This document shows positions 1,741 to 13,204 of a stretch of DNA of 31,113 nucleotides, piece by piece. The position numbers and the translations under genes are program-made. The notes under the pieces were generated by a model that made no database searches, had not been told where the DNA came from, and saw only the letters and a program-made list of their open reading frames with translations. The first letter of the stretch is position 1, and every line of letters begins with the position of its first letter. Source of the stretch: a virus; the IMG/VR virus record IMGVR_UViG_3300044616_000660, positions 1 through 31,113 of that record. The stretch is one strand, 5' to 3'.

Positions 1741-1771
1741 TAGTATTCGTTTCACACTTCAAATTATTCAA
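1741..1771 (-). promoter_or_regulatory. phage promoter-like element, copy a
   Basis: Minus-strand TTGAATAA, 13 nt, ACGAATACTA (one mismatch to the consensus ACGAATAATA). It lies upstream of the seven-gene cluster 1666 to 1. The TGA stop of the gene 1768-2067 is formed inside its TTGAATAA half. Confidence 0.7.
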
Positions 1772-2067
1772 TAATTATTTCCAAAAACTTGATCTTTAAC
1801 TGTATACATAGAGTTATAAAATTCCCCATTAGGCACAGCTAAATTTAGATATGTAGCACCAGTCTTAAAACTCCGTATGTGCTTATCATCAACAGGGTTA
1901 TGTCCATCTACATAGATATACAGATTGGCACAATTGATAACGCCATGCTCATTCATTCTACCTCTAAGTATATGTAAGTATACTTTGTCTATATCTCTAT
2001 AAGCAGGGGCGTTAAGTTCTTCCCTTTTAATTCTCCATTGGTTTCCTACCTGTTTGATTTCAATCAT
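1768..2067 (-). CDS. hypothetical protein, 99 aa
   Basis: Starts at 2067, overlapping the stop of the upstream gene in a TAATG arrangement, with GAGGATG as a ribosome site. Strong alternation of hydrophobic and polar residues (for example NLYIYVDG) suggests a small beta-sheet protein. Its stop codon is supplied by the promoter element 1741-1771 that serves the next cluster. Family not recognised. Confidence 0.75.
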   Translation of the reverse strand: MIEIKQVGNQWRIKREELNAPAYRDIDKVYLHILRGRMNEHGVINCANLYIYVDGHNPVDDKHIRSFKTGATYLNLAVPNGEFYNSMYTVKDQVFGNNY

Positions 2068-2255
2068 TAGATTTCATCCTCAAAAGAAAAAGAAATTGGA
2101 AGAACAAAAGCGTTTAATTTTTCATAAAGTTTTTCCAATTCTTTTTTGTGCGTAGCATCCATGCTTGGAGTAATCCAAAGTTCATAGCTTAAGCTATTAG
2201 CTATCATAGATATTTCATCTGGTGTTAGCTGTACATTTACAATTGAATCATTCAT
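2067..2255 (-). CDS. hypothetical protein, 62 aa, acidic helical
   Basis: Starts at 2255 behind GAAGGAG. The sequence (MNDSIVNVQLTPDEISMIANSL) reads as a short beta strand followed by helices, ending in a Phe/Glu/Asp-rich tail. It overlaps both neighbours by a few bases, so it is probably coupled to them. No function assigned. Confidence 0.75.
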   Translation of the reverse strand: MNDSIVNVQLTPDEISMIANSLSYELWITPSMDATHKKELEKLYEKLNAFVLPISFSFEDEI

Positions 2256-2496
2256 TTGTTTCTACTCCTTCGCATTTGGAAAACGCAAATTCTTGTTCAA
2301 GTGCTTTAATTCTCAAGTTTAACATATACATATGGATATATGTTTTTCCAAGTAATGTGACTATCTCTTGCAAATTTTCAACCATAGCAGAAAAGCCTTC
2401 TTTAGATGGTTGCCAAGATTCATACTTGACCTCTGTGCATGAATCGTGCAAAGTCTGAATCATACCTTTAAGTTTTTCTTTAAATTGATCGTTCAT
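2248..2496 (-). CDS. hypothetical protein, 82 aa, coiled-coil-like
   Basis: Starts at 2496 behind AACAAGGAG. The whole chain looks helical with heptad-like spacing of Leu, Ile and Met (LQEIVTLLGKTYIHMYMLNLRIKALEQEF region), consistent with a small coiled coil. It overlaps the flanking genes by 8 and 17 bp. Family unknown. Confidence 0.75.
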   Translation of the reverse strand: MNDQFKEKLKGMIQTLHDSCTEVKYESWQPSKEGFSAMVENLQEIVTLLGKTYIHMYMLNLRIKALEQEFAFSKCEGVETNE

Positions 2497-2656
2497 GATT
2501 ATTCTCCTTGTTAAATTTTGCTCTTAGTTCACTTAATGTTAAGGTTAGTTCTCTATTTTCTTGCCGAAAGATAAAAACGCCAAGCCCTCTAGCATCTAGC
2601 CTATAGCCAATTGATTCCATGTACTGCAAGCATTCGTTAAGTGTTATGACTTTCAT
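2480..2656 (-). CDS. hypothetical protein, 58 aa
   Basis: Start set at the ATG at 2656 (MKVITLNECLQYMESIGYRL) because AAGGAG is correctly spaced; the 14 codons upstream lie inside the preceding gene. It has a helix-strand pattern with basic and acidic patches. It overlaps the upstream gene by 20 bp. No family recognised. Confidence 0.75.
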   Translation of the reverse strand: MKVITLNECLQYMESIGYRLDARGLGVFIFRQENRELTLTLSELRAKFNKENNHERSI

Positions 2657-2963
2657 GTTTGCTCTCCTTGTAATTTTGAACTTTGTAGTAATTTTCATTT
2701 ACATAAATAAGATCGTCATCTTCATCGATAAGAGTTACAGAACTTGAAATAGCATTGTATGCGTAATCACCAATCTTTATTTTTCCATTGCCTAACTTAA
2801 ACATTTCCTTTTCAAGAATCACTCTAAGTAATCCCTTGCGGTCACTTACGACCCATTTTAACCCGCCAGCAATTTCTGTTAATTTTTCTTTAAGCAAAAA
2901 ATTCTCTACTTTGCCATCAGAAAACTTACAAACAACTTGGCATCCAGTTACAAACTTGCTCAT
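2637..2963 (-). CDS. hypothetical protein, 108 aa, beta-rich
   Basis: Starts at 2963 behind TAGGAG. The first 90 residues alternate hydrophobic and charged residues (MSKFVTGCQVVCKFSDGKVE...), suggesting a beta-barrel or SH3-like fold; the C-terminus is polar. It is the second gene of the cluster downstream of the promoter-like element 3358-3388. Family not recognised. Confidence 0.75.
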   Translation of the reverse strand: MSKFVTGCQVVCKFSDGKVENFLLKEKLTEIAGGLKWVVSDRKGLLRVILEKEMFKLGNGKIKIGDYAYNAISSSVTLIDEDDDLIYVNENYYKVQNYKESKHESHNT

Positions 2964-2965
2964 GT

Positions 2966-3319
2966 TTATTCTCCTATGTAATCCATATCTAATAATTTCA
3001 TAACGCCATAAGTATGAACATTCTCTTCCCCATCATGCACAAACTCAATTTGTACTCTCACATATATGCCACCATCTTTATGAATAAGCTTTCGCCCACT
3101 TATATAGATATTGGTAGCTATCTCTGTAGTACCGAATGTGTATCCTGTTGGCAGATAGAAATCTGCTTTATCCCAGTCTGAAGACTTGAGGCATTCGCCA
3201 AACTTCCAACCATCAGCGTGAACATAATAGCCAACCTTGGCTTCAACCTTCCATCCATTGATCACTTTAAACTTCGGACAATCCTTTGGATTAAGTGCAA
3301 TGCTCATTCTCTTTTTCAT
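2966..3319 (-). CDS. hypothetical protein, 117 aa
   Basis: Start chosen at the ATG at 3319 (MKKRMSIALNPKDCPKF) because AAGGAG then sits six bases upstream; an ATG two codons earlier is too close to the site. It is rich in Trp, Tyr and Gly (GWKVEAKVGYYVHADGWKFG), a beta-sandwich-like composition. First gene of the six-gene cluster after the promoter-like element 3358-3388. Family not recognised. Confidence 0.75.
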   Translation of the reverse strand: MKKRMSIALNPKDCPKFKVINGWKVEAKVGYYVHADGWKFGECLKSSDWDKADFYLPTGYTFGTTEIATNIYISGRKLIHKDGGIYVRVQIEFVHDGEENVHTYGVMKLLDMDYIGE

Positions 3320-3357
3320 TTCCATCTCCTTGGTTAAAACTTTCCATCTCCATACTT

Positions 3358-3388
3358 AGTTATTCGTTCCACATCTTAAATTATTCAA
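3358..3388 (-). promoter_or_regulatory. phage promoter-like element, copy b
   Basis: Minus-strand TTGAATAA, 13 nt, ACGAATAACT. It stands 39 bp ahead of the start at 3319 and serves the cluster 3319-1768. The gene 3392-3826 ends 4 bp before it. Confidence 0.7.
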
Positions 3389-3391
3389 TAA

Positions 3392-3826
3392 TTATGGAAT
3401 ATATTTTTGCATAATTGCATATTTACAATTATAAAACTTTCCATCATGTATATAGATTCGATCACTATTGCCCCAGTAACTTGCTTTTTTCATATCCTTT
3501 GGATCAACATCGTTTAGAAAAGGAATATGCGGGAAGCATCTTTTAATGATCGCAATCTTATTATCTTCCTTCTCGTTCCTACCTTGTACATATACAAATA
3601 TGCTTTTGCAAGTAATTACATACTGGTATGTATCATTGAATTTATACTCTGGTTTTCTTTTCTCAAGCCTTTTTTCTTCTTTGCATGATTCAATACCTAC
3701 AAGCTTGACATAGACATCTTCCATGTCTACCCAATCGGTTCTTGTTAGTCCATCCTTTTTCAAGGTTGTAATCTTATACCTATATGTATTGCTTATACCG
3801 CTATACTCTTTAGTAAATGTAATCAT
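3392..3826 (-). CDS. hypothetical protein, 144 aa, basic
   Basis: Starts at 3826 behind AAAGGAG. It is Lys- and Tyr-rich with long beta-strand-like stretches (TYQYVITCKSIFVYVQG) and a central Lys/Glu cluster (KEEKRLEKRKPEYK). It shares a cluster with the 97-aa gene upstream, under the promoter-like element 4183-4213. Family not recognised. Confidence 0.75.
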   Translation of the reverse strand: MITFTKEYSGISNTYRYKITTLKKDGLTRTDWVDMEDVYVKLVGIESCKEEKRLEKRKPEYKFNDTYQYVITCKSIFVYVQGRNEKEDNKIAIIKRCFPHIPFLNDVDPKDMKKASYWGNSDRIYIHDGKFYNCKYAIMQKYIP

Positions 3827-3850
3827 TTCATTCTCCTTTGTTAAAGTTGC

Positions 3851-4144
3851 TTAGTCATCAGTATTATAAACCAGTCGATATTTAAAAACTCCCCAATCAA
3901 ATTTAGGGTAAAGTTCTTGAACTTCCTTTAATCTTTTTCTTGCACTTCGCCAATCTTTATGTTCGTACAAAGATTTAAAAAACTTCTTGCAAGCCCATAT
4001 AAGTTTTCTTCCTTCTCTCTCGTCTTTAATATATTTGTCCGCAGCTATTTTTTTTGCTGCTGGATTTAATTTTGACCACCCTTTAATATATTTAGGGTCT
4101 TTAATTTCAATTTTCCATAACCAGTCTGTCAATATTTGTTGCAT
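3851..4144 (-). CDS. hypothetical protein, 97 aa, basic helical
   Basis: Starts at 4144 behind AAAGGGG. It is rich in Lys, Arg and Trp (WLWKIEIKDPKYIKGWSKLNP) and predicted helical; the composition would suit nucleic-acid binding but no motif proves it. First gene after the promoter-like element 4183-4213. Confidence 0.75.
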   Translation of the reverse strand: MQQILTDWLWKIEIKDPKYIKGWSKLNPAAKKIAADKYIKDEREGRKLIWACKKFFKSLYEHKDWRSARKRLKEVQELYPKFDWGVFKYRLVYNTDD

Positions 4145-4182
4145 TACATTTCCCCTTTGCGTAAATTTTTACTTCCATACTT

Positions 4183-4213
4183 AATTATTCGTTTGACTGC
4201 CCAAATTATTCAA
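4183..4213 (-). promoter_or_regulatory. phage promoter-like element, copy c
   Basis: Minus-strand TTGAATAA, 13 nt, ACGAATAATT. It serves the two genes 4144-3392. Confidence 0.7.
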
Positions 4214-4224
4214 ATTTATTTTTA

Positions 4225-4692
4225 TTAAATACAACTTGGTTCAATTGAAGACTTACAGCTAATAGAAGACGATGTATAGAACAATTCTCGGCCAGAAGAA
4301 AAGATATTTAAGTTCTCGGCCTTGTCCATGTTTGTAGAGTTATGTCCTTGCCAGTTAGGTGCAACTCTAGGATTATATGACAACTTCATGTGTGTGTTTG
4401 CCACAACTTTATTTATATGGTTAATGTTTGCTCGCCCACCAGCGGTATCATCTCTGTAAATAACTAGGTTCTCACACTCTACCCATGCACACACAGTCTT
4501 ATTCGCCCCACATTTGATCTTTGTAGCTGTAGCCACATGATTGACCAACTTGGCATTAATCATCTGTATACACACAGTAGAAGGGTCGCAATAGAATGGC
4601 TTGCCACTTGGCTTATTAGGTGAAGCATCACCAGTAATTTGCCATTTCATGTAGTTTTCCCCTTTTGCCAAATGGAATCTTACCTTATACAT
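4225..4692 (-). CDS. hypothetical protein, 155 aa
   Basis: Start set at the ATG at 4692 (MYKVRFHLAKGENYMKWQI) because AAGGAGG precedes it closely. The first 100 residues form an ordered domain with a conserved look (YMKWQI, GANKTVCAWVECENLVIY) and several cysteines; the last 50 residues are Ser/Asn-rich and probably flexible. It reminds me of small phage proteins of unknown function that begin with the same strand pattern, but I cannot name a family. Confidence 0.75.
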   Translation of the reverse strand: MYKVRFHLAKGENYMKWQITGDASPNKPSGKPFYCDPSTVCIQMINAKLVNHVATATKIKCGANKTVCAWVECENLVIYRDDTAGGRANINHINKVVANTHMKLSYNPRVAPNWQGHNSTNMDKAENLNIFSSGRELFYTSSSISCKSSIEPSCI

Positions 4693-4702
4693 ATTGACCT
4701 CC

Positions 4703-5023
4703 TTATTTAATAAGACTTGAATCAACTAATGGATAACAATACTCACCTAAATGATCATCCAGAACATCAGTAAAACCTCCATGTGTAACTCTAAAGATAT
4801 TTTCATAGCCAGCCATGCTAATGAAATTAACAGGTCTATCTTTAAACGCCCTCTTTAATGCTGCTACTGTTTGCTTGTATGTCTTGGGCTTGCACTCATC
4901 GCCCTTAAGACTCCATGAGGGTTTCCACCAATACTCAATCTGGTAGACAAGTTCTTGCTTACCCTCAATGTTCAACTCTAGGTAGTTTCTAATACCACTA
5001 AGTTTGTATACATAAGCACCCAT
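4703..5023 (-). CDS. hypothetical protein, 106 aa
   Basis: Starts at 5023 behind AACAAGGAG. It has a mixed alpha/beta pattern with aromatic residues (YQIEYWWKPSW) and a basic central helix (KQTVAALKRAFKDRP). It is the middle gene of the three-gene cluster under the promoter-like element 5269-5299. Family not recognised. Confidence 0.75.
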   Translation of the reverse strand: MGAYVYKLSGIRNYLELNIEGKQELVYQIEYWWKPSWSLKGDECKPKTYKQTVAALKRAFKDRPVNFISMAGYENIFRVTHGGFTDVLDDHLGEYCYPLVDSSLIK

Positions 5024-5025
5024 GT

Positions 5026-5223
5026 TTACTCTCCTTGTTGTTTGTAGATTTCGTTTCTTCTTTTATCAGACTTATTTGCAAACCTTCTTGCTCTATTGCA
5101 AAGTTTTTGCCCATAGTCATTCTCATCAAAGTCAGGTTGAATGTAGACATCTTCTAAATGTCCAGCAAGCTCCTTAACCAAGTCGATCAACTTTTCCTCT
5201 GTCGTTTGTGGTTTTACATACAT
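5026..5223 (-). CDS. hypothetical protein, 65 aa, helical
   Basis: Starts at 5223 behind AAAGGAG. Acidic N-terminal half and basic C-terminal half (NRARRFANKSDKRRNEIYKQQ), predicted all-helical. First gene after the promoter-like element 5269-5299. Function unknown. Confidence 0.75.
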   Translation of the reverse strand: MYVKPQTTEEKLIDLVKELAGHLEDVYIQPDFDENDYGQKLCNRARRFANKSDKRRNEIYKQQGE

Positions 5224-5268
5224 CTTTCATTCTCCTTTGTGTTAGTGTTATCTTTCCTTGCCATACTG

Positions 5269-5299
5269 TATTATTCGTACCAAAACCAATTTTATTCAA
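5269..5299 (-). promoter_or_regulatory. phage promoter-like element, copy d
   Basis: Minus-strand TTGAATAA, 13 nt, ACGAATAATA, an exact match to the consensus in both halves. It serves the cluster 5223-4225. Confidence 0.75.
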
Positions 5300-5327
5300 T
5301 TTATTTTTAATATTTTTCCGTACTGTG

Positions 5328-5540
5328 CTACGGTTTAATTGCACCAAATGCGTTTTCTACCCCCTCAAAGCTAAACTCTACTGTTTTATGCCCATTTAAT
5401 GACATTATTTTCACCCCATTTTTAGTGACTATGACCAAAGAACTACCCTTGATCTTCCACACCCACACTTCCTCATTGGGCAAATTAGGGTTGTTAACAG
5501 ACACTAAAAAGTTGTCAGGTACTAAACTTGTTTCTTGCAT
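5328..5540 (-). CDS. hypothetical protein, 70 aa, beta-rich
   Basis: Start placed at the ATG at 5540 (MQETSLVPDNFLVSVNNPN) preceded by GGGGGAAAA; an ATG seven codons upstream has no site. The sequence alternates Val, Ile, Ser and Trp and looks like a small beta-barrel. No promoter-like element lies directly ahead of it, so it may be expressed by read-through from 6142-6172. Family not recognised. Confidence 0.65.
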   Translation of the reverse strand: MQETSLVPDNFLVSVNNPNLPNEEVWVWKIKGSSLVIVTKNGVKIMSLNGHKTVEFSFEGVENAFGAIKP

Positions 5541-5750
5541 TTTTCCCCCATATTTATGCACTTTTTGACTGTTTACAACAACTAAAATTATTAATATTAT
5601 CCTTACTAATATACATAGGGCAGAGAGGCTTTTTCACTATAGCGTATTAGGTGAACTAACATGGTATAAGAAAGTGGCTTCCACGCAACAAGATGTATAG
5701 TTTTGTATACTTTGACATAAGTCCTTTGATACCATATGTTTACGGCTGAA
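5541..5750. other. short gene-free gap with one palindromic repeat
   Basis: Open frames here have no convincing ribosome site. The recognisable element is the 20-bp TGTATAG-type repeat at 5694-5713. Confidence 0.5.
5694..5713. repeat. TGTATAG repeat, third copy
   Basis: The 20-mer TGTATAGTTTTGTATACTTT, identical to the copy at 6098-6117. Its core GTATA, 6 nt, TATAC is palindromic, as expected for a dimeric DNA-binding protein. Confidence 0.65.
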
Positions 5751-5921
5751 TTAATCCCTCCAGAGGCATAATCTAACGAGGTTTTTGTCTTCTGGAGACA
5801 CGCCAGCATCATGGAGAATCTTCTTGAGTCGCATGATTTCTGTGGCTAAGACACCGATATCTAGCTCATTAATCGGGTGTTTTTTGTCTAGTTTTTGTTG
5901 ATACTTTATCGATAGTCTCAT
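5751..5921 (-). CDS. hypothetical protein, 56 aa, helical
   Basis: Starts at 5921 (MRLSIKYQQKLDKKHPINEL) behind TTAGGAG at eight bases. It has a helical pattern with a second segment DAGVSPEDKNLVRLCLWRD. It is preceded by an unusually long leader of about 215 bases running from the promoter-like element 6142-6172, which holds two tandem TGTATAG repeats and a B-like stem. Function unknown. Confidence 0.65.
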   Translation of the reverse strand: MRLSIKYQQKLDKKHPINELDIGVLATEIMRLKKILHDAGVSPEDKNLVRLCLWRD

Positions 5922-6141
5922 TTTCTATACTCCTAATAGGTAAAAAGCTCATATTCCTGCGGAAAAACACACATTTTGTGTCCATAGTGACCACCAAGGT
6001 CAAGAAGGGCTAAAATAAGCTTAAAAAGGTGCAAATTTGTGACGATTTGCCACTCAAAAACTCATTTTTTGTCCAAATGTATAGTTTTGTACACTTTTGT
6101 ATAGTTTTGTATACTTTTGAAACTTCTTTCCTTCCATACCT
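5922..6141 (-). promoter_or_regulatory. long structured leader with B-like stem
   Basis: This gene-free stretch lies between the promoter-like element 6142-6172 and the start at 5921. On the minus strand it contains, around 5972-6008, CTTGGTGGTCACTATGGACA, which resembles the first stem of the B elements at 9.1 and 11.1 kb, and TGACC...GGTCA self-complementarity. Two tandem 20-bp repeats lie at 6078-6117. It may be a regulatory leader; no known riboswitch class is recognised. Confidence 0.45.
6078..6117. repeat. two tandem TGTATAG 20-mers
   Basis: Two head-to-tail 20-bp units that differ at one base (GTACAC versus GTATAC in the second half). They lie just downstream of the promoter-like element 6142-6172, a position suited to repression of that promoter. 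Confidence 0.65.
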
Positions 6142-6172
6142 CATTATTCGTACCAGATTCAGATTTATTCAA
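6142..6172 (-). promoter_or_regulatory. phage promoter-like element, copy e
   Basis: Minus-strand TTGAATAA, 13 nt, ACGAATAATG. It serves the 56-aa gene 5751-5921 through the long leader. Confidence 0.7.
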
Positions 6173-6194
6173 ATAAAAAAATAAAAATTTAGTT

Positions 6195-6225
6195 TTGAAT
6201 AAAAGACAACTTGAAACGAATAATA
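6195..6225 (+). promoter_or_regulatory. phage promoter-like element, the only rightward copy (f)
   Basis: TTGAATAA, 13 nt, ACGAATAATA on the plus strand, an exact match. It is back-to-back with copy e and faces copy g at 6382-6412. It would drive a rightward transcript through the GC-rich block 6231-6375. Confidence 0.75.
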
Positions 6226-6230
6226 CAATA

Positions 6231-6375
6231 GAAGTGTGAGGGGCAACCGCATCAAACCCGCCTATAGGACTAGATTGTCTTGTGGGGATAGGGGATTGCG
6301 TACTTGCAAAAAAAGCAGTATGTGGGCGTACCCTCCCCGAACCCGCTTATTGTTGGTAAGACAAACAGCAGGGCT
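6231..6375 (+). ncRNA. candidate structured RNA, A-like element (A3)
   Basis: A GC-rich block without a convincing gene, directly after the rightward promoter-like element f. It shares ACCCGCCT (6256-6263) and GGGATAGGGGAT (6285-6296), in the same order and similar spacing, with the minus-strand A1 element at 8.9 kb. It also shares TTGGTAAGACA (6353-6363) with the block at 12.6 kb. A GTG-initiated frame of 67 codons crosses it but has no ribosome site. The opposite strand would also be transcribed from copy g. Confidence 0.5.
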
Positions 6376-6381
6376 ATACTT

Positions 6382-6412
6382 TATTATTCGTATGAGAACG
6401 AAAAATATTCAA
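6382..6412 (-). promoter_or_regulatory. phage promoter-like element, copy g, facing copy f
   Basis: Minus-strand TTGAATAT, 13 nt, ACGAATAATA (one mismatch). No leftward gene follows within 450 bp, so its product would be antisense to the A3 block. Confidence 0.65.
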
Positions 6413-6421
6413 AAGAAAAAG

Positions 6422-6461
6422 AAAAAAAACGCAGAGTGAAGTAAAGGGATCTCCACTCTGC
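6422..6461 (-). terminator. rho-independent terminator of the DUF932 gene
   Basis: Minus-strand stem GCAGAGTG/CACTCTGC (6454-6461 with 6431-6438) followed by a T run (the A run at 6422-6429). It lies about 90 bp after the stop of the gene 6552-7685. A second imperfect stem (6467-6472 with 6492-6497) lies between. Confidence 0.75.
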
Positions 6462-6551
6462 CTGAGTCCTGCCAGCGAGAGGTTTGCACCAGCAGGATTG
6501 TATTAATAAGGGGATAAGCTGCCCAGTTCTTACCCCCCCATCCAAACCATC

Positions 6552-7685: not shown

Positions 7686-7697
7686 AAGAATCTCCTT

Positions 7698-7710
7698 GTG
7701 GCAAAGCCAC
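7698..7710 (-). promoter_or_regulatory. hairpin touching a ribosome binding site
   Basis: GTGGC, TTT, GCCAC on the minus strand, ending directly before AAGGAG of the DUF932 gene. It may affect ribosome access or mRNA stability. Confidence 0.45.
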
Positions 7711-7743
7711 TATTAGTTAAAAATTTAAAACCTCTTACTACTA

Positions 7744-7774
7744 CATTATTCGTACAGACACGAATTTTATTCAA
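7744..7774 (-). promoter_or_regulatory. phage promoter-like element, copy h
   Basis: Minus-strand TTGAATAA, 13 nt, ACGAATAATG. It serves the DUF932 gene; its TTGAATAA half contains the TGA stop of the gene 7771-7953. Confidence 0.7.
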
Positions 7775-7953
7775 CTACATTTTAAAAATCTTGGTTCTTT
7801 AGTTACAAGATTACCATTCTCCCAAGTCTTACCTTGGGGAACTACTTGCCATTTCTGATTATCTACGGTGAAGACTCCACCGAAGACTGACCATGTTCCC
7901 TCATCTTTAGCTTCTTGCCAAAGCTTTAATAACTTAGCCTTAGTTGTCTCCAT
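7771..7953 (-). CDS. hypothetical protein, 60 aa
   Basis: Starts at 7953 behind GGGGGGAT. A helical N-terminus (METTKAKLLKLWQEAKDEG) followed by a Trp/Val-rich beta segment. It overlaps the upstream gene by 14 bp and is the last of three genes under the promoter-like element 8579-8609. Function unknown. Confidence 0.75.
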   Translation of the reverse strand: METTKAKLLKLWQEAKDEGTWSVFGGVFTVDNQKWQVVPQGKTWENGNLVTKEPRFLKCS

Positions 7954-8287
7954 AGTTATCCCCCCAAGTTACATAACCATCGTTTTTTAACATTTGGAAA
8001 ACCTCAGCATAATAGTAGTTATGCCAATTGAAATCCATGTCGCCACACGCCTCAATGTATTCTTCCATGAACTGGGTCATATCTATATGATCATAGACAC
8101 TATCGTAGATGGTTCCCTTTAGAACCTCGTTATCTCTATCTATTTTGCGAAGTGTCTCTAAACCATACCTTCTCTCAAGTCTCTGCCCGAAGTGAGCAGC
8201 AAGGCACTCTAAATCGCCTTCCTGCGGTTTCTCGTAAGGCTTGTCCTTAACTTCCGGCAAACACCCTAGCTTATCGTAACTTCTCAT
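7940..8287 (-). CDS. hypothetical protein, 115 aa, acidic
   Basis: Starts at 8287 behind GAGGAC. Two helical segments rich in Tyr, Asp and Glu; the C-terminus is aromatic (FNWHNYYYAEVFQMLKNDGY). A similar organisation (acidic, Tyr-rich, helical) is seen in the 115-aa protein at 10127-10474, though no clear alignment is visible. Family not recognised. Confidence 0.75.
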   Translation of the reverse strand: MRSYDKLGCLPEVKDKPYEKPQEGDLECLAAHFGQRLERRYGLETLRKIDRDNEVLKGTIYDSVYDHIDMTQFMEEYIEACGDMDFNWHNYYYAEVFQMLKNDGYVTWGDNYGDN

Positions 8288-8299
8288 AACTATGTCCTC

Positions 8300-8560
8300 T
8301 TAGTTAGTAAAAACAAACAACGCATCATCTTTCATCCAACTACCTACCATATCGCCTTCCCACTTTAACTTCTCTGCGAAAAGTCTTGCAGCATTGGCGA
8401 AATTTTCCTTATATTCCAACTCATAATCCCAACCTACTGTCAGGTAAGGAGGTCTACGCATCCCATTTCCTAGGCTACACTTAAGGCGTTTGCCTCTTGT
8501 ATCTGTGATAGGTAGAACCTTCACAAAGATAGTTGCACCGCCCACAAATCTTACATTCAT
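8300..8560 (-). CDS. hypothetical protein, 86 aa
   Basis: Starts at 8560 (MNVRFVGGATIFVKVLPITD) with GGAG about a dozen bases upstream. Alternating strands then a helix (NFANAARLFAEKLKWEGD) suggest a compact alpha/beta fold. First gene after the promoter-like element 8579-8609. Family not recognised. Confidence 0.75.
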   Translation of the reverse strand: MNVRFVGGATIFVKVLPITDTRGKRLKCSLGNGMRRPPYLTVGWDYELEYKENFANAARLFAEKLKWEGDMVGSWMKDDALFVFTN

Positions 8561-8578
8561 CTTTCATTCTCCATATAT

Positions 8579-8609
8579 AGTTATTCGTTTCAAATCCAAA
8601 ATTATTCAC
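8579..8609 (-). promoter_or_regulatory. phage promoter-like element, copy i
   Basis: Minus-strand GTGAATAA, 13 nt, ACGAATAACT. It serves three genes (8560-7771) and abuts the stop codon of 8610-8744. Confidence 0.65.
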
Positions 8610-8744
8610 TTACATTTCAAATTTTTTCACAAGTTCTCGATAAAGAAAATCGTAATCTTCTTGCCTTATCTCATTAGCCATCAACTTATCATCCAATCTA
8701 TCAACAGCTTTTTCAAATCTCACTTCTTTTTCTTGTTCGCTCAT
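8610..8744 (-). CDS. hypothetical protein, 44 aa, charged helical
   Basis: Start set at the ATG at 8744 (MSEQEKEVRFEKAVDRLDDK) because AAAGGAG precedes it; the 18 codons further upstream overlap the promoter-like element. Strongly helical and charged. It is the gene at the end of the duplicated cassette 8781-9125, in the same place as the gene 10542-10754 in the second cassette. Function unknown. Confidence 0.7.
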   Translation of the reverse strand: MSEQEKEVRFEKAVDRLDDKLMANEIRQEDYDFLYRELVKKFEM

Positions 8745-8780
8745 CTCATCTCCTTTGTTTGTTGTGTCCTTCTCATACTT

Positions 8781-8811
8781 TATTATTCGTACGAACATGA
8801 TTTTTATTCAA
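8781..8811 (-). promoter_or_regulatory. phage promoter-like element, copy j, with upstream site
   Basis: Minus-strand TTGAATAA, 13 nt, ACGAATAATA (exact). It serves 8610-8744. The 19-bp site at 8831-8849 lies 19 bp upstream of it. Confidence 0.75.
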
Positions 8812-8830
8812 AAGATTTTTAAAATATTTT

Positions 8831-8849
8831 TTGTAATACTAAGTATTAC
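8831..8849. promoter_or_regulatory. GTWWWAC operator-like site 1
   Basis: TGTAATACTAAGTATTACC. The inner GTAATAC-TAA-GTATTAC is a perfect palindrome. It stands 19 bp behind promoter-like copy j. Confidence 0.65.
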
Positions 8850-8962
8850 CAGAAAAGCTATAGGCGTTCCGCATCCCCTATCCCTCTCCCGATACCAGAG
8901 AGGCGGGTTGTTTTACATCGGCCCTCCCGATTTTTTTCAAGTTTTAGATTCTTGTTTTCCTT
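8850..8962 (-). ncRNA. candidate structured RNA, A element (A1)
   Basis: This lies directly downstream of promoter-like copy k. On the minus strand it has a hairpin ATCGG-GAGGG-CCGAT (8916-8930), then ACCCGCCT (8900-8907), a CCTCTC/GAGAGG stem, GGGATAGGGGAT (8872-8883) and GCGGAACGCC. There is no open frame with a ribosome site. A2 (10.9 kb) shares the layout and A3 (6.2 kb, plus strand) shares the conserved blocks. No known RNA family is recognised; ends are estimates. Confidence 0.5.
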
Positions 8963-8969
8963 TCTATAC

Positions 8970-9000
8970 TATTATTCGTTTGAACTTGAAAATTATTCAA
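8970..9000 (-). promoter_or_regulatory. phage promoter-like element, copy k, with upstream site
   Basis: Minus-strand TTGAATAA, 13 nt, ACGAATAATA (exact). Only the A1 block follows it before the next promoter-like element, so it appears dedicated to that RNA. Confidence 0.75.
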
Positions 9001-9020
9001 AAAAATCTTTTTATTTTATT

Positions 9021-9039
9021 GGTATAACAAAGTATAACC
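9021..9039. promoter_or_regulatory. GTWWWAC operator-like site 2
   Basis: GGTATAACAAAGTATAACC, 20 bp behind promoter-like copy k. Symmetric only at the GG/T, AC, GT and ACC positions; the A/T triplets are not complementary, which argues for a DNA-binding site rather than an RNA stem. Confidence 0.65.
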
Positions 9040-9045
9040 ATTTTT

Positions 9046-9125
9046 GGCTTTGGTGGTATGGGTAATCCGCTTGCTATTCGGGCATTACTTCGGGAACTCC
9101 GGTGGTATCCATAGGACACCGCCAG
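9046..9125 (-). ncRNA. candidate structured RNA, B element (B1)
   Basis: GC-rich block on the minus strand with the stem GGTGTCC-TAT-GGATACC, then ACCGGAGTTCC and a GTAAT/ATTAC stem enclosing AGCAAGCGG. It aligns over about 70 bases with B2 at 11.1 kb: GTCCTATGGA, ACCACCG, ATGCCC and TAGCAAGCG are shared in order. No gene fits here. No promoter-like element of the phage type lies directly ahead of it. Confidence 0.45.
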
Positions 9126-9195
9126 ATTAAAATTTAACTTTTTTGTTCATTGGATAAAAGTTATAAACCAATTTTGAAATCTCTGAAGAATTGTC

Positions 9196-9225
9196 TTGAC
9201 AGGTTTTTAACCCCATCAGTATAAT
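9196..9225 (+). promoter_or_regulatory. perfect sigma-70 consensus promoter on the plus strand
   Basis: TTGACA, 18 nt, TATAAT, both hexamers perfect. It points rightward, against all genes of this arm, and would make an RNA antisense to the 3' end of the operon 9342-10066. The host housekeeping polymerase is the expected user. Confidence 0.6.
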
Positions 9226-9261
9226 TGTCTAGCAGAGGGATTTACTCTCACTTTTATTAAA

Positions 9262-9286
9262 AGCCTATCCTATCTCCGAACAGGCT
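9262..9286 (-). terminator. terminator-like hairpin ending the 9342-10066 operon
   Basis: Minus-strand stem AGCCTGTT/GATAGGCT (8 pairs with two G-U) followed by TTTTAATAAAA. It lies 55 bp after the stop at 9342. The T-run is imperfect. Confidence 0.5.
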
Positions 9287-9341
9287 AAAAATAATCTCCA
9301 TCTGTAAGAGTTCTGTACTTGAGCAAAGATAGTTAAATAGA

Positions 9342-9536
9342 CTATACATTATCACTTTCCTCCAATAAGAAATATTCTGGTACTGGTGCAAGTTCATGCT
9401 TACCAAAGTAAAGCTTGATCCATAATTCTTTGATGTCTGATTCCTTATAGAATTCGCCATCTTGTTTATCTAAACCTAATATGATCAAAGCGTGTTCAAT
9501 CAATTTCTTCTCTGCCATACTTAATTCTATTAGCAT
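9342..9536 (-). CDS. hypothetical protein, 64 aa
   Basis: Starts at 9536 (MLIELSMAEKKLIEHALIIL) behind GTGGAG, and the ATG directly abuts the TAA of the preceding 28-aa gene. Helical N-terminal half, acidic C-terminus. Last gene of a five-gene operon led by the promoter-like element 10086-10116. Function unknown. Confidence 0.7.
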   Translation of the reverse strand: MLIELSMAEKKLIEHALIILGLDKQDGEFYKESDIKELWIKLYFGKHELAPVPEYFLLEESDNV

Positions 9537-9623
9537 TTATAACTCCACAAAAAGGTTACAGTAGATAAGTGTAAAAACAAAGAAAATGTTTCCAATCAAT
9601 GCCAGTGCAATTACTTCGTTCAT
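9537..9623 (-). CDS. micro-protein, 28 aa, membrane helix
   Basis: Reads MNEVIALALIGNIFFVFTLI then YCNLFVEL: almost entirely hydrophobic, with one membrane helix. AGGGAG precedes the ATG at 9623, which overlaps the stop of the previous micro-gene by 4 bp (ATGA). It forms a pair with the adjacent 30-aa membrane peptide. The function is unknown; accessory lysis or membrane modification are possibilities. Confidence 0.6.
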   Translation of the reverse strand: MNEVIALALIGNIFFVFTLIYCNLFVEL

Positions 9624-9712
9624 TTGTCCATCTCCCTAAAAAGTTGTGCAAAAAGAATAATCCCTACAAACAACATATTGGCTAAACCACCTACACATAT
9701 TAACTCAAACAT
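9620..9712 (-). CDS. micro-protein, 30 aa, membrane helix
   Basis: Reads MFELICVGGLANMLFVGIIL then FAQLFREMDK: one hydrophobic helix with a charged C-terminal end. GGGAGG lies five bases before the ATG at 9712, a strong site. It overlaps the Cys-rich gene upstream by 8 bp and the 28-aa gene downstream by 4 bp, so the three are likely translated together. Confidence 0.6.
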   Translation of the reverse strand: MFELICVGGLANMLFVGIILFAQLFREMDK

Positions 9713-9917
9713 AAGTACCTCCCTTTTTAAGCCTATCCTTATAGGCACTTCCAATAGGAGAAATCTTTTTCAAACCTTCAAATATTTGATCTTCATTAAA
9801 TAATACAACCCCATCTACGATGTGAAAAAACGCAAAGCACTTATAACAAAGCTGGTAGTGTTTACACTTAACCACAACCTTCGCTTCTTTTCTGCAATCA
9901 TCGCAATTCATTCCCAT
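9705..9917 (-). CDS. small Cys-rich, probable zinc-binding protein, 70 aa
   Basis: Starts at 9917 behind AAAGGAG. Cys5 and Cys8 (CDDC) followed by Cys18, His20, Cys24 and Cys27 (CKHYQLCYKC) suggest a zinc ribbon or RING-like fold in the first 30 residues, with a basic C-terminal tail. Such small proteins may bind nucleic acid or host proteins; the partner is unknown. Start overlaps the preceding stop by one base (TAATG). Confidence 0.7.
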   Translation of the reverse strand: MGMNCDDCRKEAKVVVKCKHYQLCYKCFAFFHIVDGVVLFNEDQIFEGLKKISPIGSAYKDRLKKGGTYV

Positions 9918-10066
9918 TACACACTCTCCTTTACTTGGCGTTTCTCTGCTTGTCTACCGCCCTTGGTAGACTTCTTCTTGCTCTTGAATACCACCATGCC
10001 CCTTGGCGTTTCGCCCCTACGCTCGAAGGGCATATTTACCAGCGTGAATCTAATAGTCCTACTCAT
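9917..10066 (-). CDS. small basic protein, 49 aa
   Basis: Starts at 10066 (MSRTIRFTLVNMPFERRGET) behind AAGGAG. The C-terminal half is strongly basic (FKSKKKSTKGGRQAEKRQVK), consistent with nucleic-acid binding. First gene of the operon under the promoter-like element 10086-10116. Its codon use is more GC-rich than that of its neighbours. Family not recognised. Confidence 0.65.
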   Translation of the reverse strand: MSRTIRFTLVNMPFERRGETPRGMVVFKSKKKSTKGGRQAEKRQVKESV

Positions 10067-10085
10067 CGTACTTCTCCTTGTAAAT

Positions 10086-10116
10086 TATTATTCGTACAAA
10101 CACACAATTTATTCAA
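10086..10116 (-). promoter_or_regulatory. phage promoter-like element, copy l
   Basis: Minus-strand TTGAATAA, 13 nt, ACGAATAATA (exact). It serves the five genes 10066-9342. Confidence 0.75.
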
Positions 10117-10126
10117 AACTTTTTTG

Positions 10127-10474
10127 CTAATCCCGATCATATCTACTTGGTTTACGCATAGCATTGCCATGCTCATGAATGAAATCGTCAATACCTAGTG
10201 CTTCCTCATTCTCCAATTCTCTTGCCTCAAGCATCTGATGGACTGCTTGGCAACCATCAAGTATTCGGCAGTGTAGGTAATTTGGGTAAAGCCCAGTGTG
10301 ACTATCTACATACCATCCCCATTCAAACTTTTCTTCCCATGATGTAACCTTAAAGGTATTAGACTTGGGATCGTAATCCACACCCACATTATATTCCCTG
10401 CCACTAAGCAGGAGTGGTGGCATATGCTTGCGAAACTCGGCAAAATTCTCAACTTCGTGAATGATACTGGACAT
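10127..10474 (-). CDS. hypothetical protein, 115 aa
   Basis: Starts at 10474 behind AAGGAG. A mixed fold is likely: N-terminal helix, a central Trp-rich beta region (EEKFEWGWYVDS), then an acidic helix (EARELENEEALGIDDFIHEH). It is a single-gene unit under 10509-10539. Family not recognised. Confidence 0.75.
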   Translation of the reverse strand: MSSIIHEVENFAEFRKHMPPLLLSGREYNVGVDYDPKSNTFKVTSWEEKFEWGWYVDSHTGLYPNYLHCRILDGCQAVHQMLEARELENEEALGIDDFIHEHGNAMRKPSRYDRD

Positions 10475-10508
10475 CTTTCTATCTCCTTGTTAGTGTTACT
10501 TCCTACTC

Positions 10509-10539
10509 TATTATTCGTACAACTATGATTTTTATTCAA
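10509..10539 (-). promoter_or_regulatory. phage promoter-like element, copy m
   Basis: Minus-strand TTGAATAA, 13 nt, ACGAATAATA (exact). It serves 10127-10474 and lies 2 bp from the stop of 10542-10754. Confidence 0.75.
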
Positions 10540-10541
10540 AA

Positions 10542-10754
10542 TTATTTGTCATAAGTTCCATAACTTCCACCGCCATAATATTTCATTGCAGCATTTATCT
10601 CATCTTCCCTCTCTTGCCTATCCTTGCAGTATTGTTGAGCTTCCGCAAGACTTTCAAATTCCTCTTCAATTTCTTCGATTTCCATCGTTTCAACGATCCA
10701 TTGACCGCCAATTTCATAATTTTCTTCAGCCCACTTCATTATTTCTTTTCCCAT
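10542..10754 (-). CDS. hypothetical protein, 70 aa, Glu-rich
   Basis: Start set at the ATG at 10754 (MGKEIMKWAEENYEIGGQW) because AAAAGGAA precedes it; an earlier in-frame ATG at 10790 would start almost at the promoter-like element. Strongly acidic helix in the middle, ending in a Gly/Tyr-rich tail (YYGGGSYGTYDK). It occupies the gene slot of the second duplicated cassette. Function unknown. Confidence 0.7.
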   Translation of the reverse strand: MGKEIMKWAEENYEIGGQWIVETMEIEEIEEEFESLAEAQQYCKDRQEREDEINAAMKYYGGGSYGTYDK

Positions 10755-10794
10755 CGTTCTTTCCTTTTCGTTAGTGTTGTTGTCTTCCATACTC

Positions 10795-10825
10795 TATTAT
10801 TCGTTTAAACCTTAAAATTATTCAA
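10795..10825 (-). promoter_or_regulatory. phage promoter-like element, copy n, with upstream site
   Basis: Minus-strand TTGAATAA, 13 nt, ACGAATAATA (exact). It serves 10542-10754; the 19-bp site 10846-10864 lies 20 bp upstream. Confidence 0.75.
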
Positions 10826-10845
10826 AAGTTTTTTAAATTATTTTT

Positions 10846-10864
10846 AATTATACTAAGTTATACC
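10846..10864. promoter_or_regulatory. GTWWWAC operator-like site 3
   Basis: AATTATACTAAGTTATACC, 20 bp behind promoter-like copy n. The right half keeps GTWWWACC; the left end has lost the GG. Confidence 0.6.
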
Positions 10865-10947
10865 TAATTTTATAAGTCCAGCCTCCCCCCATCCCCCCTA
10901 GATATTTCTCTAGGAGGCAAGCTTATTTTGTATCGATCCTTCTCGAT
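10865..10947 (-). ncRNA. candidate structured RNA, A element (A2)
   Basis: Begins at promoter-like copy o. On the minus strand it has the hairpin ATCGA-GAAGGA-TCGAT (10932-10947), then a long G/C stem (CCTCCTAGA with TCTAGGGGGG and a terminal GGGGGGAGGC). The layout matches A1: purine-loop hairpin, A-rich linker, large stem. Primary sequence is less conserved than between A1 and A3. No open frame of note. Confidence 0.45.
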
Positions 10948-10951
10948 ATTA

Positions 10952-10982
10952 TATTATTCGTTTGAAACGCAAAATTATTCAA
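10952..10982 (-). promoter_or_regulatory. phage promoter-like element, copy o, with upstream site
   Basis: Minus-strand TTGAATAA, 13 nt, ACGAATAATA (exact). Only the A2 block follows before copy n. Confidence 0.75.
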
Positions 10983-11000
10983 AAAAAAATTAAAATAATT

Positions 11001-11019
11001 GGTATAACAAAGTATAACT
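11001..11019. promoter_or_regulatory. GTWWWAC operator-like site 4
   Basis: GGTATAACAAAGTATAACT, 18 bp behind promoter-like copy o. It is identical to site 2 except for the last base. Confidence 0.65.
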
Positions 11020-11021
11020 TT

Positions 11022-11215
11022 GCAAGCTTTTTGGCAGGGCAAAGACGCTTGCTAGCAGGGCATACCATCAGGAACCTCGGTGGTGTCCATAGGACACACC
11101 AAGCTTTTTTTTAAAGATCTGCTTTTTTCGATTTTAGGTATCTCACCTTGGTTTTCCCCTAAAAGCAGCAAACATTACCTATCGTTTAAACTTAATACAT
11201 TTTTTTTCCCTCTTG
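11022..11215 (-). ncRNA. candidate structured RNA, B element with 5' extension (B2)
   Basis: Follows promoter-like copy p. The first half has CTGCTTTT pairing with AAAAGCAG around a small AGGT/ACCT hairpin. The second half (11026-11105) has GTGTCC-TAT-GGACAC and the blocks ACCACCGAGGTTCC, ATGCCC and TAGCAAGCG shared with B1. No gene fits. Not recognised as a known riboswitch or ribozyme. Confidence 0.5.
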
Positions 11216-11222
11216 TGTATTA

Positions 11223-11253
11223 TATTATTCGTTTTAAACTAAGATTTATTCAA
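11223..11253 (-). promoter_or_regulatory. phage promoter-like element, copy p
   Basis: Minus-strand TTGAATAA, 13 nt, ACGAATAATA (exact). Followed by the B2 block; no GTWWWAC site lies behind it. Confidence 0.75.
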
Positions 11254-11263
11254 AAAAATCTTT

Positions 11264-11440
11264 TTATTTTATTATCCATATTTCATCTTTATGATACATA
11301 TCCAAGCATTTTTGTAATTCTTGAACATTAGGCATATCGCCCAATTGCTTTAGTACTTTTCTATTTCTACTTGAAGCAAACATAGCCAACCTTATCAATT
11401 TGCCATTAATAGCTATGTTTGCAGGTATTGCGTATCTCAT
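11264..11440 (-). CDS. hypothetical protein, 58 aa, basic
   Basis: Starts at 11440 (MRYAIPANIAINGKLIRLAM) behind AAAAGGA. N-terminal strand pattern then a basic helix (SSRNRKVLKQLGDMP) and an acidic end. It lies 18 bp after the Gp88-type gene and is probably co-transcribed with it from the element 12185-12215. Function unknown. Confidence 0.7.
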   Translation of the reverse strand: MRYAIPANIAINGKLIRLAMFASSRNRKVLKQLGDMPNVQELQKCLDMYHKDEIWIIK

Positions 11441-11458
11441 TATATAATCCTTTTCTTT

Positions 11459-12148
11459 CTAGTGATAGATATAGGCCACATTGCTTACGCTTTTATCCCA
11501 ACATTTACGGCAATCATTGCAGTTGACCTTGCTTGCACCATTAAAGGCATCAAGACTTGCTTGACATATATTTTCGTGCCGACTATCTGCATTAACTGGT
11601 GTTCTTATTGCAGTGCTTGTAGGCAATCCAAGCCCCTTGCTAGGCACTTGATCGACCATGTACATACTTGGCCTAACAGTGAAGTTACTTGCAAATTCGC
11701 CATGTATAGCTAGGTATTCCCGAACCATACCATGTTCCTTGGTAGGTAGCCAAAACTTAACTTCTGGCAGAGCAAGAGCAATCTCATTCATTGCCACTAA
11801 CATCTCCAAACTTTGAACATCGCCCGAAGTAAACCACCTAAAGTATGCTTGCGTTTTATCCCGCATATGTTTATATTTCTTGCCCAATGCTTTGATAAAA
11901 GCTTCTTTCCAAACTTCAAGCCCCTTGTTAAGCTCATTGAACCTATTCGTATTTGCATCTTTGACGATACCGAATCCATATCGCCCCTTTAGGGCATAAC
12001 ACCCCTCGCATATTGACCCCTTGACATTTACCAATTTACCGCCTGTTTTACATTCAAACGCTGGAATATCCCATGATATCCAAGGCATTTTTTCAGTTTG
12101 ACTAAACTTTATTTCAACTACTGGCTTGATAACTTCTAGACTTAACAT
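11459..12148 (-). CDS. Gp88-type Cys-rich phage protein, 229 aa
   Basis: Starts at 12148 behind AAGGAA. Features that recall the phage gene-product-88 family are Cys47 and Cys50 in ICEGCYA, the block FRWFTSGDVQS near residues 103-113, and a C-terminal CNDCRKCW cluster; Cys33 may also take part. The Cys arrangement suggests bound zinc or an iron-sulphur cluster. The family is widespread in phages and its role is not known to me. Family assignment rests on motif memory, not on a search. Confidence 0.65.
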   Translation of the reverse strand: MLSLEVIKPVVEIKFSQTEKMPWISWDIPAFECKTGGKLVNVKGSICEGCYALKGRYGFGIVKDANTNRFNELNKGLEVWKEAFIKALGKKYKHMRDKTQAYFRWFTSGDVQSLEMLVAMNEIALALPEVKFWLPTKEHGMVREYLAIHGEFASNFTVRPSMYMVDQVPSKGLGLPTSTAIRTPVNADSRHENICQASLDAFNGASKVNCNDCRKCWDKSVSNVAYIYH

Positions 12149-12184
12149 CTTACAGTTCCTTGTGTTAGAGTAACTTTCCTATCA

Positions 12185-12215
12185 TATTATTCGTTTCAAC
12201 TTTCAAATTATTCAA
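12185..12215 (-). promoter_or_regulatory. phage promoter-like element, copy q
   Basis: Minus-strand TTGAATAA, 13 nt, ACGAATAATA (exact). It serves the Gp88-type gene; its TTGAATAA half contains the stop codon of 12212-12466. Confidence 0.75.
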
Positions 12216-12466
12216 AACTTTTCACAATTATTTTCAAATTCTTCAAGTAGTGCTTGCTCACATTCAAACTTATCGATCATCCTTGAAGTTAATTCTTCAA
12301 GATTAAAATCCTCAATCTCTTGGCAAGTAGTTGGCATTAAAGCTTCAAAATCAGGGATGATATTTTCATCATCGATTACAATCTCATAATCTCTCTCATT
12401 ACCAAGATATTCGATAAGATCATCTTGATTTTGTTCCCACTGGCCATCATCATTAAAGTTAATCAT
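12212..12466 (-). CDS. hypothetical acidic protein, 84 aa
   Basis: Starts at 12466 (MINFNDDGQWEQNQDDLIEY) behind AAAAGGAA. Extremely rich in Asp and Glu and net strongly acidic. Highly acidic small phage proteins sometimes mimic DNA or bind basic host proteins, but this is only a compositional hint. Single-gene unit under the element 12509-12539. Confidence 0.7.
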   Translation of the reverse strand: MINFNDDGQWEQNQDDLIEYLGNERDYEIVIDDENIIPDFEALMPTTCQEIEDFNLEELTSRMIDKFECEQALLEEFENNCEKF

Positions 12467-12508
12467 CTTGCGTTTCCTTTTCGTTATAGTGTTTCATCTT
12501 CCATACTT

Positions 12509-12539
12509 TATTATTCGTTTTAACTTAAAATTTATTCAA
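12509..12539 (-). promoter_or_regulatory. phage promoter-like element, copy r
   Basis: Minus-strand TTGAATAA, 13 nt, ACGAATAATA (exact). It serves 12212-12466. Confidence 0.75.
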
Positions 12540-12594
12540 AACAATTTTAAAATATTTTTAAAATCATATTAAGATAAACATATCCAATTCAAAT

Positions 12595-12656
12595 CAGCCG
12601 ATCTTAGCCTATAGGCATAGCTTCCCTAAGCCCAGTGACTTTGGTAAGACACTAGG
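12595..12656. other. structured gap after the sigma gene
   Basis: Holds the palindrome GCCTATAGGC (12607-12616), a 7-bp stem between 12631-12637 and 12650-12656, and TTGGTAAGACA (12641-12651) shared with the A3 block. No gene. It may be the 3' part of the sigma transcript or a separate RNA. Confidence 0.35.
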
Positions 12657-12668
12657 TTATTTTAAATA

Positions 12669-12691: not shown

Positions 12692-12705
12692 CTTATCTAC
12701 CTTGC

Positions 12706-13176: not shown

Positions 13177-13204
13177 GATACAAATCCTTGTTTTAGATAG
13201 TTTG

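Follow-up and report, generated by a model that had tools for sequence, protein, structure and literature searches.

A repeated two-block, probable promoter motif and a candidate phage sigma factor in the early arm of an uncultured, probably planctomycete-infecting phage

The IMG/VR virus record IMGVR_UViG_3300044616_000660 carries a repeated two-block motif in its leftward arm of small early genes. We analyzed positions 1 to 31,113 of this record, a stretch of 31,113 nt referred to here as the window. Two sigma-like genes, divergent from each other, flank the strand switch that separates the early arm from the rightward structural arm. P0001 (12706-13176, minus strand) encodes a 156-residue extracytoplasmic function (ECF)-type sigma factor and heads the motif array, which spans 1741-12539. 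P0002 (13959-14552, plus strand) encodes a second sigma-like protein of 197 residues and heads the structural arm. The analysis identified P0001 as the candidate reader of the motif.

Motif copies in the early arm

The whole window was scanned for TTGAATAA-N13-ACGAATAATA, tolerating up to three mismatches. The scan yields exactly 18 matches, whereas 100 dinucleotide shuffles averaged 0.13 and never exceeded 2. Eleven are exact: 5269-5299 (predicted transcription start 5264), 6195-6225 (6230), 8781-8811 (8776), 8970-9000 (8965), 10086-10116 (10081), 10509-10539 (10504), 10795-10825 (10790), 10952-10982 (10947), 11223-11253 (11218), 12185-12215 (12180) and 12509-12539 (12504). Five contain one mismatch, 1741-1771 (1736), 4183-4213 (4178), 6142-6172 (6137), 6382-6412 (6377) and 7744-7774 (7739). 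The copy at 3358-3388 (3353) contains two and that at 8579-8609 (8574) three. Seventeen copies are located on the minus strand, and 6195-6225 is the only one on the plus strand. No match is found in 12540-31113, which includes the structural arm.

An earlier prediction, made from the letters of this DNA, had placed 18 copies here, with nearly invariant halves, a variable 13-nt spacer and no full copy in the plus-strand structural arm. All 18 were recovered at their positions with none extra, and the structural arm in the window is indeed free of them. The halves are nearly invariant as described. The spacer is partly fixed, its tenth base (motif position 17, the first T being 0) being T in 17 of 18 copies and its last two bases [A/G][A/T] in all 18. 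The predicted core stands, and the motif extends beyond it. Aligned with their flanks, the copies consist of an A/T-rich tract, TTGAATAA, the spacer, ACGAATAATA, three freer bases and a T-A step at positions 34/35, which is invariant in 18/18 copies.

Each copy was also predicted to lie just ahead of a gene cluster or a structured intergenic block. Placement just ahead of genes holds for 12 of the 17 minus-strand copies, where a start codon with a ribosome-site-like sequence follows the predicted start by 13-54 nt; one of these start codons is TTG. The DUF932 gene is located 54 nt from the start at 7739, and the GP88 gene 32 nt from that at 12180. For the other five the next such open reading frame (ORF) is 193-464 nt away, with distances of 216 nt for the copy at 6142, 456 nt for 6382, 221 nt for 8970 and 464 nt for 11223. 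The copy at 10086 overlaps a short called ORF (10191-10063). The copies at 6195 (plus) and 6142 (minus) form a divergent pair, which is kept in two related phages, G001 (the plus-strand copy with one mismatch) and G006.

Relatives, motif classes and sigma types

Relatives were collected by an exact-motif scan and two protein scans of viral contigs, and extend down to about 48% TerL identity. The exact-motif scan returned 48 stretches, 12 from seven multi-copy records and 36 with a single match, one of which (L026) belongs to the group. From the TerL scan, the best 80 of 229 matches were used. All seven multi-copy records carry P0001 and P0002. Megablast of the structural arm of the window against 50,697 phage records found no match. 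In G001 (141.8 kb), 34 motif matches are found at up to three mismatches. The first 15.5 kb contain 24 of these and the stretch at 96-141.8 kb the other ten, and the structural arm (16.8-81 kb) is free of them. Two of the far matches, at 103023 and 140776, are exact over the 17 bases scanned. The G001 record ends by repeating its first bases, so the copies near 140 kb probably adjoin the left arm. In G007, the structural arm has three weak matches in antisense, with 2-3 mismatches. The original prediction had confined the motif to the left arm, which is correct for the window.

Across the group, we counted a core of AATA and CG.ATA at fixed spacing in 13 phage regions. G005 and G007 were omitted as near-duplicates of G001 and G002, and five contigs that cover little of the array (L113, L116, L122, L124 and L127) were not counted. 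The constancy of AATA and CG.ATA is by construction, and gapped-word counts provide the independent support. On the P0001 strand the core has 148 occurrences (122 distinct sites), against 3 on the opposite strand and 2 when read backwards. Positions 34/35 played no part in choosing these sites, and a pyrimidine-purine step is found there in 120 of the 122. The offsets available for comparison are 36/37 (85 sites) and 32/33 (49), since 33/34 and 35/36 (0/122 each) are excluded by the 34/35 step itself. Bacterial polymerase favors a pyrimidine-purine step at -1/+1, and the step at 34/35 is likely the transcription start. With position 35 taken as +1, TTGAATAA begins at -35.

Gapped-word counts made without the window motif revealed TAAAT..CGAAT arrays in L112, L119, L121 and L126. 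The motif in these four is mostly [C/T]TAAATAA-N13-ACGAATA, followed by TAA, GAT or AAG. The window elements become CTAAATAA and ACGAATATAA or ACGAATAGAT in relatives, and further forms are found in L150-L152, L197 and L159. We distinguished the classes TTGAATAA/ACGAATAATA, TCGGATAAT, CTAAATAA/ACGAATATAA and GTAAATAA/GCGAATAAG. The upstream tracts, spacers and leaders of 94 window-type sites are found in varied combinations. For example, upstream clusters 0 and 29 each occur with spacer clusters 29 and 34. The arrangement looks mosaic, suggesting that motif copies act as joints for exchange among early genes.

The start of P0001 was set by alignment, as the mechanical ORF reaching 13290 starts too early. 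The window protein matches Sigma70_r2 at 1.6e-6, above the cut-off, and has no Sigma70_r4 match of its own. Sigma70_r2 is recognized in 13 and Sigma70_r4 in 8 of 14 homologues (E ≤0.1). The NCBI sigma70-ECF model TIGR02937 spans residues 12-155 of the window protein with 41.1 bits, against a cut-off of 42.9, and matches 14 of 14 family members at E ≤0.1 (best 2.8e-16). The P0001 profile matches FliA region 2 best (4.8e-9). The structure model contains helices at residues 3-70 and 95-155, connected by a low-confidence linker (70-94). ECF sigma factors make up 12 of the 14 top matches in a fold search with this model, with template modeling (TM) scores to the query of 0.3-0.4. The family profiles and the model fit the ECF (group IV) domain plan, with sigma2 and sigma4 domains and no sigma3. 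ECF sigma factors typically, though not universally, use a GGAAC-type -35 element. No such element is seen here, where the -35 blocks are TTGAATAA or, in relatives with other P0001 types, mostly [C/G]TAAATAA.

A P0001 homologue adjoins the array in 13 of 13 phage regions. The full 11-base core also precedes P0001 itself in L122, L126 and L127, by 57-60 nt from the predicted start to the ATG. Such a copy contains one mismatch in L119, L120 and L121 and two in L124; in G001, G004 and G005 it is located at 83 nt, with one mismatch. Self-regulation of P0001 is possible in the relatives that have an upstream copy.

The motif and the sigma type change together. Eight window-type regions, whose sigma4 halves are 50-99% identical, have G at position 2 of the -35 half in 92 of 94 sites. 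Five other regions, whose sigma4 halves are 14-27% identical to the window type, have A there in 54 of 54 sites. The sigma4 half of L112 is 48-51% identical to those of L119 and L126, which have the -35 block of L112. The end of the -10 block varies by group as well. A partial Mantel test of motif against P0001 given TerL gave r=0.55 (p=0.0003, 12 regions). L107, with one site, was omitted from this test and from the trees. In the identity comparisons, a sister contig, L146, supplied TerL and P0002 for L119. The TCGGATAAT element is found in 5/5 contigs with a type-B P0001 (G002, G003, G006, L107 and L110) and 0/3 others (the window, G001 and G004); counting the near-duplicates G005 and G007, the ratios are 6/6 and 0/4. 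Discordance with support on both trees is seen only for TCGGATAAT. TerL plus P0002 place the window and G006 as sisters (97/98), whereas G006 groups with G002, G003 and L110 by P0001 (96/97). The pattern indicates that sigma type and motif co-change across the relatives, in a manner not fully separable from common descent.

P0001 itself is far more diverged than P0002 and TerL. Between the window and G006, P0002 and TerL are 100% identical (rounded) as proteins and align at 96.5% as DNA. P0001 is 46% identical, and only 3% of its DNA aligns. Three P0001 types are present among five phages (the window, G001, G004, G006 and G002) that share 97-100% identical P0002. Between these types, the sigma2 halves are 29-38% and the sigma4 halves 50-64% identical. 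This looks like replacement by old, diverged alleles.

Proposed assignment of the motif to P0001

The orientation of the copies, their position ahead of genes, the -35/-10 geometry and the pyrimidine-purine step support the 18 copies being promoters of one leftward-arm regulon, and the loss of TTGAAT/AATAAT in relatives supports a type other than standard sigma-70. The original prediction had likewise called the motif promoter-like but not standard sigma-70, and had left its reader unnamed. The likeliest reader is P0001. We propose that the copies are the promoters of a single early or middle regulon, read by host core RNA polymerase together with P0001, and put the probability of this reading at roughly three in four.

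In the proposed mechanism, host sigma-70 polymerase would first transcribe P0001, perhaps from a sigma-70-like site at 13482-13509 on the minus strand. This candidate immediate-early promoter, TTGACA-16-AATAAT, matches the consensus at 11 of 12 positions and ends 306 nt before the P0001 start. A similar sequence is found at the same place in G006, G002 and G007, and not in G001, G004 or G005. The region has only a slight excess of sigma-70-like sites (76 found versus 58.6 expected, motif copies counted in), so the role of this site is just a suggestion. P0001 would then recruit host core polymerase to the motif, its sigma4 contacting TTGAATAA (-35 to -28) and its sigma2 the block around CGAATA (-13 to -8). 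Initiation is predicted at the purine of the conserved pyrimidine-purine step. As a result, the small early genes of the leftward arm would be switched on, together with several small non-coding RNAs. P0002 may then read GGTGTA[A/T][A/T] and turn on the rightward structural arm, a step proposed with less confidence.

Early phage genes are commonly served by host sigma-70, and the copies could be strong early promoters for the host housekeeping sigma, in the form TTGAAT-18-AATAAT with an A/T-rich, UP-like tract. They match TTGACA/TATAAT at 9 of 12 positions with an 18-nt spacer, and the upstream tract is indeed A/T-rich. However, the hexamers are lost in relatives, whose arrays read CTAAATAA and ACGAATATAA or ACGAATAGAT, and the better sigma-70-like sites of the window are different ones (TTGACA-16-AATAAT at 13509 and TTGACA-18-TATAAT at 9196). 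Because the hexamers are not kept, we dropped this explanation as unlikely. Host sigma might instead act with a phage activator bound at the TTGAATAA block, as T4 MotA does. An upstream block that is constant in sequence and distance could serve as an activator box, and the activator could differ between relatives. In relatives, however, the -10 block changes as well and does not fit sigma-70 (no activator search was made), and at the array of all 13 regions there is a sigma factor with a sigma4-like C-terminal half. An activator is therefore quite improbable. A sigma-28-like promoter reads TAAA, 17 nt, CGATAA. The spacing of the CTAAATAA class fits this, in line with the FliA profile match, but the -10 element of the class has an extra A, and the resemblance is kept as a remark only.

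It is very unlikely that P0002 reads the two-block motif while P0001 does something else. P0002 has homologues in 13/13 phages, and its C-terminal helices could hold a degenerate sigma4. However, only sigma2 is recognized in it, and a separate motif, described below, marks its own arm. Between the window-type regions and L112, L119 and L126, which differ in the -35 half, P0002 remains 62-83% identical, compared to 22-29% for P0001. Least credible is a role of the copies in recombination, replication or packaging, as dispersed DNA sites and not as promoters. The mosaic flanks, spacers and leaders indicate that exchange does happen at the motif, but such sites would leave unexplained the one-strand orientation with transcription, the -35/-10 geometry, the pyrimidine-purine step and the ribosome-site-like sequences 13-54 nt on in 12 of 17 copies.

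Several observations weigh against the assignment to P0001 or parts of it. The reverse Mantel control, motif against TerL given P0001, is also significant (r=0.55, p=0.005), so common descent could account for much of the joint change. In raw identity the window is closer to L112 than to G003 (TerL 90 versus 87%, P0002 82 versus 77%), from which it appeared that the motif follows P0001 against the backbone. That argument is weakened by the backbone tree, in which G003 groups with the window group (83/90); the TTG class may then be one lineage and the switch one event. Every TCGGATAAT site is located within about 1 kb of P0001, and linkage on the same swapped segment alone could explain these sites. 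The window, G001-type and type-B P0001 have a common main -10 block, yet are only 29-38% identical in sigma2. By gapped-word counts, 17 more distant loci (L154, L155, L162, L163, L167, L171, L178, L179, L181-L184, L187, L189, L195, L196 and L198), most without a detected P0001, show other repeats or nothing and no such array. The window and nine others of 20 contigs have no good copy before P0001, the best one in the window lacking CG. Confidence in the P0001 model is moderate, with a predicted local distance difference test score of 76.8 and a predicted TM score of 0.40. Only one fold match was counted at E ≤0.001, and TM scores among the top rows are 0.2-0.4. The transcription start could instead be at position 37.

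The comparisons also suggest, tentatively, a wider scenario that we consider possible but doubtful. The early sigma gene would be repeatedly swapped for deeply diverged alleles in near-identical planctomycete phages, and its promoters would travel, recombine and slowly re-code with it. If this is true, the phage keeps switching the specificity of its early program, for example to escape host or rival-phage factors that block sigma. What remains would be a natural series of sigma-promoter pairs with stepwise change of the -35 code.

Other features, host and known systems

Non-coding units are found behind several copies. The copy at 10952 heads a structured RNA unit (10830-10947, minus strand) that is conserved in G001, G004, G006, L112, G012 and L126. 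It contains a hairpin, AUCG[A/G]-GAAGG[A/G]-[U/C]CGAU, and another stem that is G-rich on one side. Among seven aligned sequences, 5 of 21 predicted pairs have at least one two-sided change, and one pair is broken in two of the seven. An Rfam search gave three matches at E 0.45-0.96, none reaching the gathering score. Two further apparently non-coding units are located at 8815-8965 (minus strand, headed by the copy at 8970) and 6230-6310 (plus strand). Both contain a similar G-rich element, GGGATAGGGG, 81 nt and 54 nt past the predicted start, respectively. The first is kept in G001, G004 and G006, and the second in G006. The blocks at 8991-9240 and 10992-11222 (minus strand) are alike, with common GGTGTCCTATGGA-type text, and end in GTTATACTTTGTTATACC before a motif copy. 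A perfect sigma-70 consensus, TTGACA-18-TATAAT, is located at 9196-9225 (plus strand), facing against the early arm, with a terminator-like short hairpin at 9235-9249.

P0002 is a candidate late sigma factor. It matches Sigma70_r2 at 2.1e-6, and its homologues, present in 13 of 13 phages used, are more conserved than P0001. Only sigma2 is recognized in P0002, of which 13 homologues were aligned, and the C-terminal helices 140-196 are unassigned. Upstream of right-arm genes, G001 and G007 are enriched in GGTGTAT, GGTGTAA and overlapping words, and the distant G008 in TGGTGTA and GGTGTAA; no such enrichment is found before right-arm genes in G013. In the right arm of G001, GGTGTA[A/T][A/T] occurs 13 times in sense, ten of them within 90 nt before a called start, and never in antisense. 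Elsewhere in G001 it is absent from the early arm and occurs three times in the replication arm, once before a start. Sense and antisense counts of plain GGTGTAT are 9/0 in G001, 9/3 in G007, 3/1 in G008 and 2/0 in G013. In the window, the single-block motif GGTGTATTT is found on the plus strand at 21769-21777, just before a gene, as a candidate late promoter, and at 25361-25369, just before a large structural gene. P0002 may use GGTGTA[A/T][A/T] as its promoter.

Three large related records each contain exactly two sigma2 matches, one of them below the family cut-off in G001 and G008. The Rpb2_6 domain of RNA polymerase beta was not found in any of the three, whose completeness is uncertain, and was detected in 14 of 14 controls. 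We therefore dropped a multisubunit polymerase of the phage's own. A search for single-subunit RNA polymerase was uninformative, as no control matched. Two sigma2 genes and no RNA polymerase beta domain make host polymerase with a phage sigma factor the natural machine.

A planctomycete host is probable. All 23 genome matches of a DUF1501 protein from G001 fall in planctomycetes, the best at 70-73% and three at 29-31% identity. This call is based on one gene of G001, not on the window, with 20 of the 75 larger G001 ORFs scanned. Six planctomycete genomes (about 25 Mb) contain no exact motif copy and eight with one or two mismatches, compared to three for a backward control; a host regulon was dropped. 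In G001, 133488-134765 and 124787-125395 encode the DUF1501 protein, which is similar to those of planctomycetes, and a cobalamin adenosyltransferase. A single ORF of 4,694 residues occupies 57120-71204 within its structural arm. The regions at 88.5-92.9, 93.3-97.7 and 118-119 kb contain several glycosyltransferase genes and DNA polymerase III alpha, the latter divided over two adjoining frames (L084 13286-14911 and 15818-17740).

In the open literature, no title or abstract opening among the matches listed describes this phage group, subscription papers being mostly outside this search. A Gemmata phage fragment from a hot spring has been published (PMC5707555). The terms ‘sigma factor’ and ‘promoter’ do not occur in that paper. 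The genomes compared here provide a readable transcription plan for an uncultured phage group, with two sigma-like genes, two arms and two motifs. The relatives offer a natural series in which sigma4 types come with matched -35 blocks, which makes the promoter-recognition rules of ECF-type factors directly testable. The sigma-promoter pairs could also serve as orthogonal parts in laboratory strains.

The array resembles the early-promoter cassettes of T4, which, as Arbiol and colleagues reportedly described in 2010, mediate modular shuffling. In both cases, repeated promoters between small early genes, some by stem-loops, appear as exchange joints. T4 early promoters serve host sigma-70, whereas the motif here is not sigma-70-like in relatives. 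The late sigma factor of T4 is gp55. P0002 resembles this type, by description only, in its recognizable sigma2, its lack of a recognized sigma4 and the single-block motif in its arm.

The closest parallels are phages 7-11 and phiEco32. As described for 7-11, SaPh711_gp47 directs host core polymerase to eight bipartite late promoters, GTAAtg-16-aCTA (PMC8948821). In phiEco32, gp36 is reported to use a single block, tAATGTAtA, before middle and late genes, and is 15% identical to the 7-11 sigma factor (PMC8948821, PMC4331800). The 7-11 sigma gene has been predicted to be served also by its own promoters (PMC4331800), and 7-11 is described as lacking phi32_gp79, the phiEco32 inhibitor of host sigma-70 (PMC8948821). 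Similar to these phages, the group studied here has a phage sigma gene for host core polymerase, and a diverged sigma in a relative goes with a different promoter, here as read from sequence. As in 7-11, the sigma gene is perhaps served by its own motif in L122, L126 and L127, and as in phiEco32, a single block, GGTGTA[A/T][A/T], precedes structural genes of the right arm. Unlike 7-11, there are 18 copies in the window (34 in G001, 24 of them in the early arm) of an unrelated motif, a second sigma-like gene divergent from the first and a probable planctomycete host. Unlike in phiEco32, the large regulon is in the early arm; its motif has two blocks and probably has another sigma factor as its reader. 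Beyond the phiEco32/7-11 plan, the features that appear new are the large early-arm regulon, the second sigma-like gene and the series of matched motif classes.

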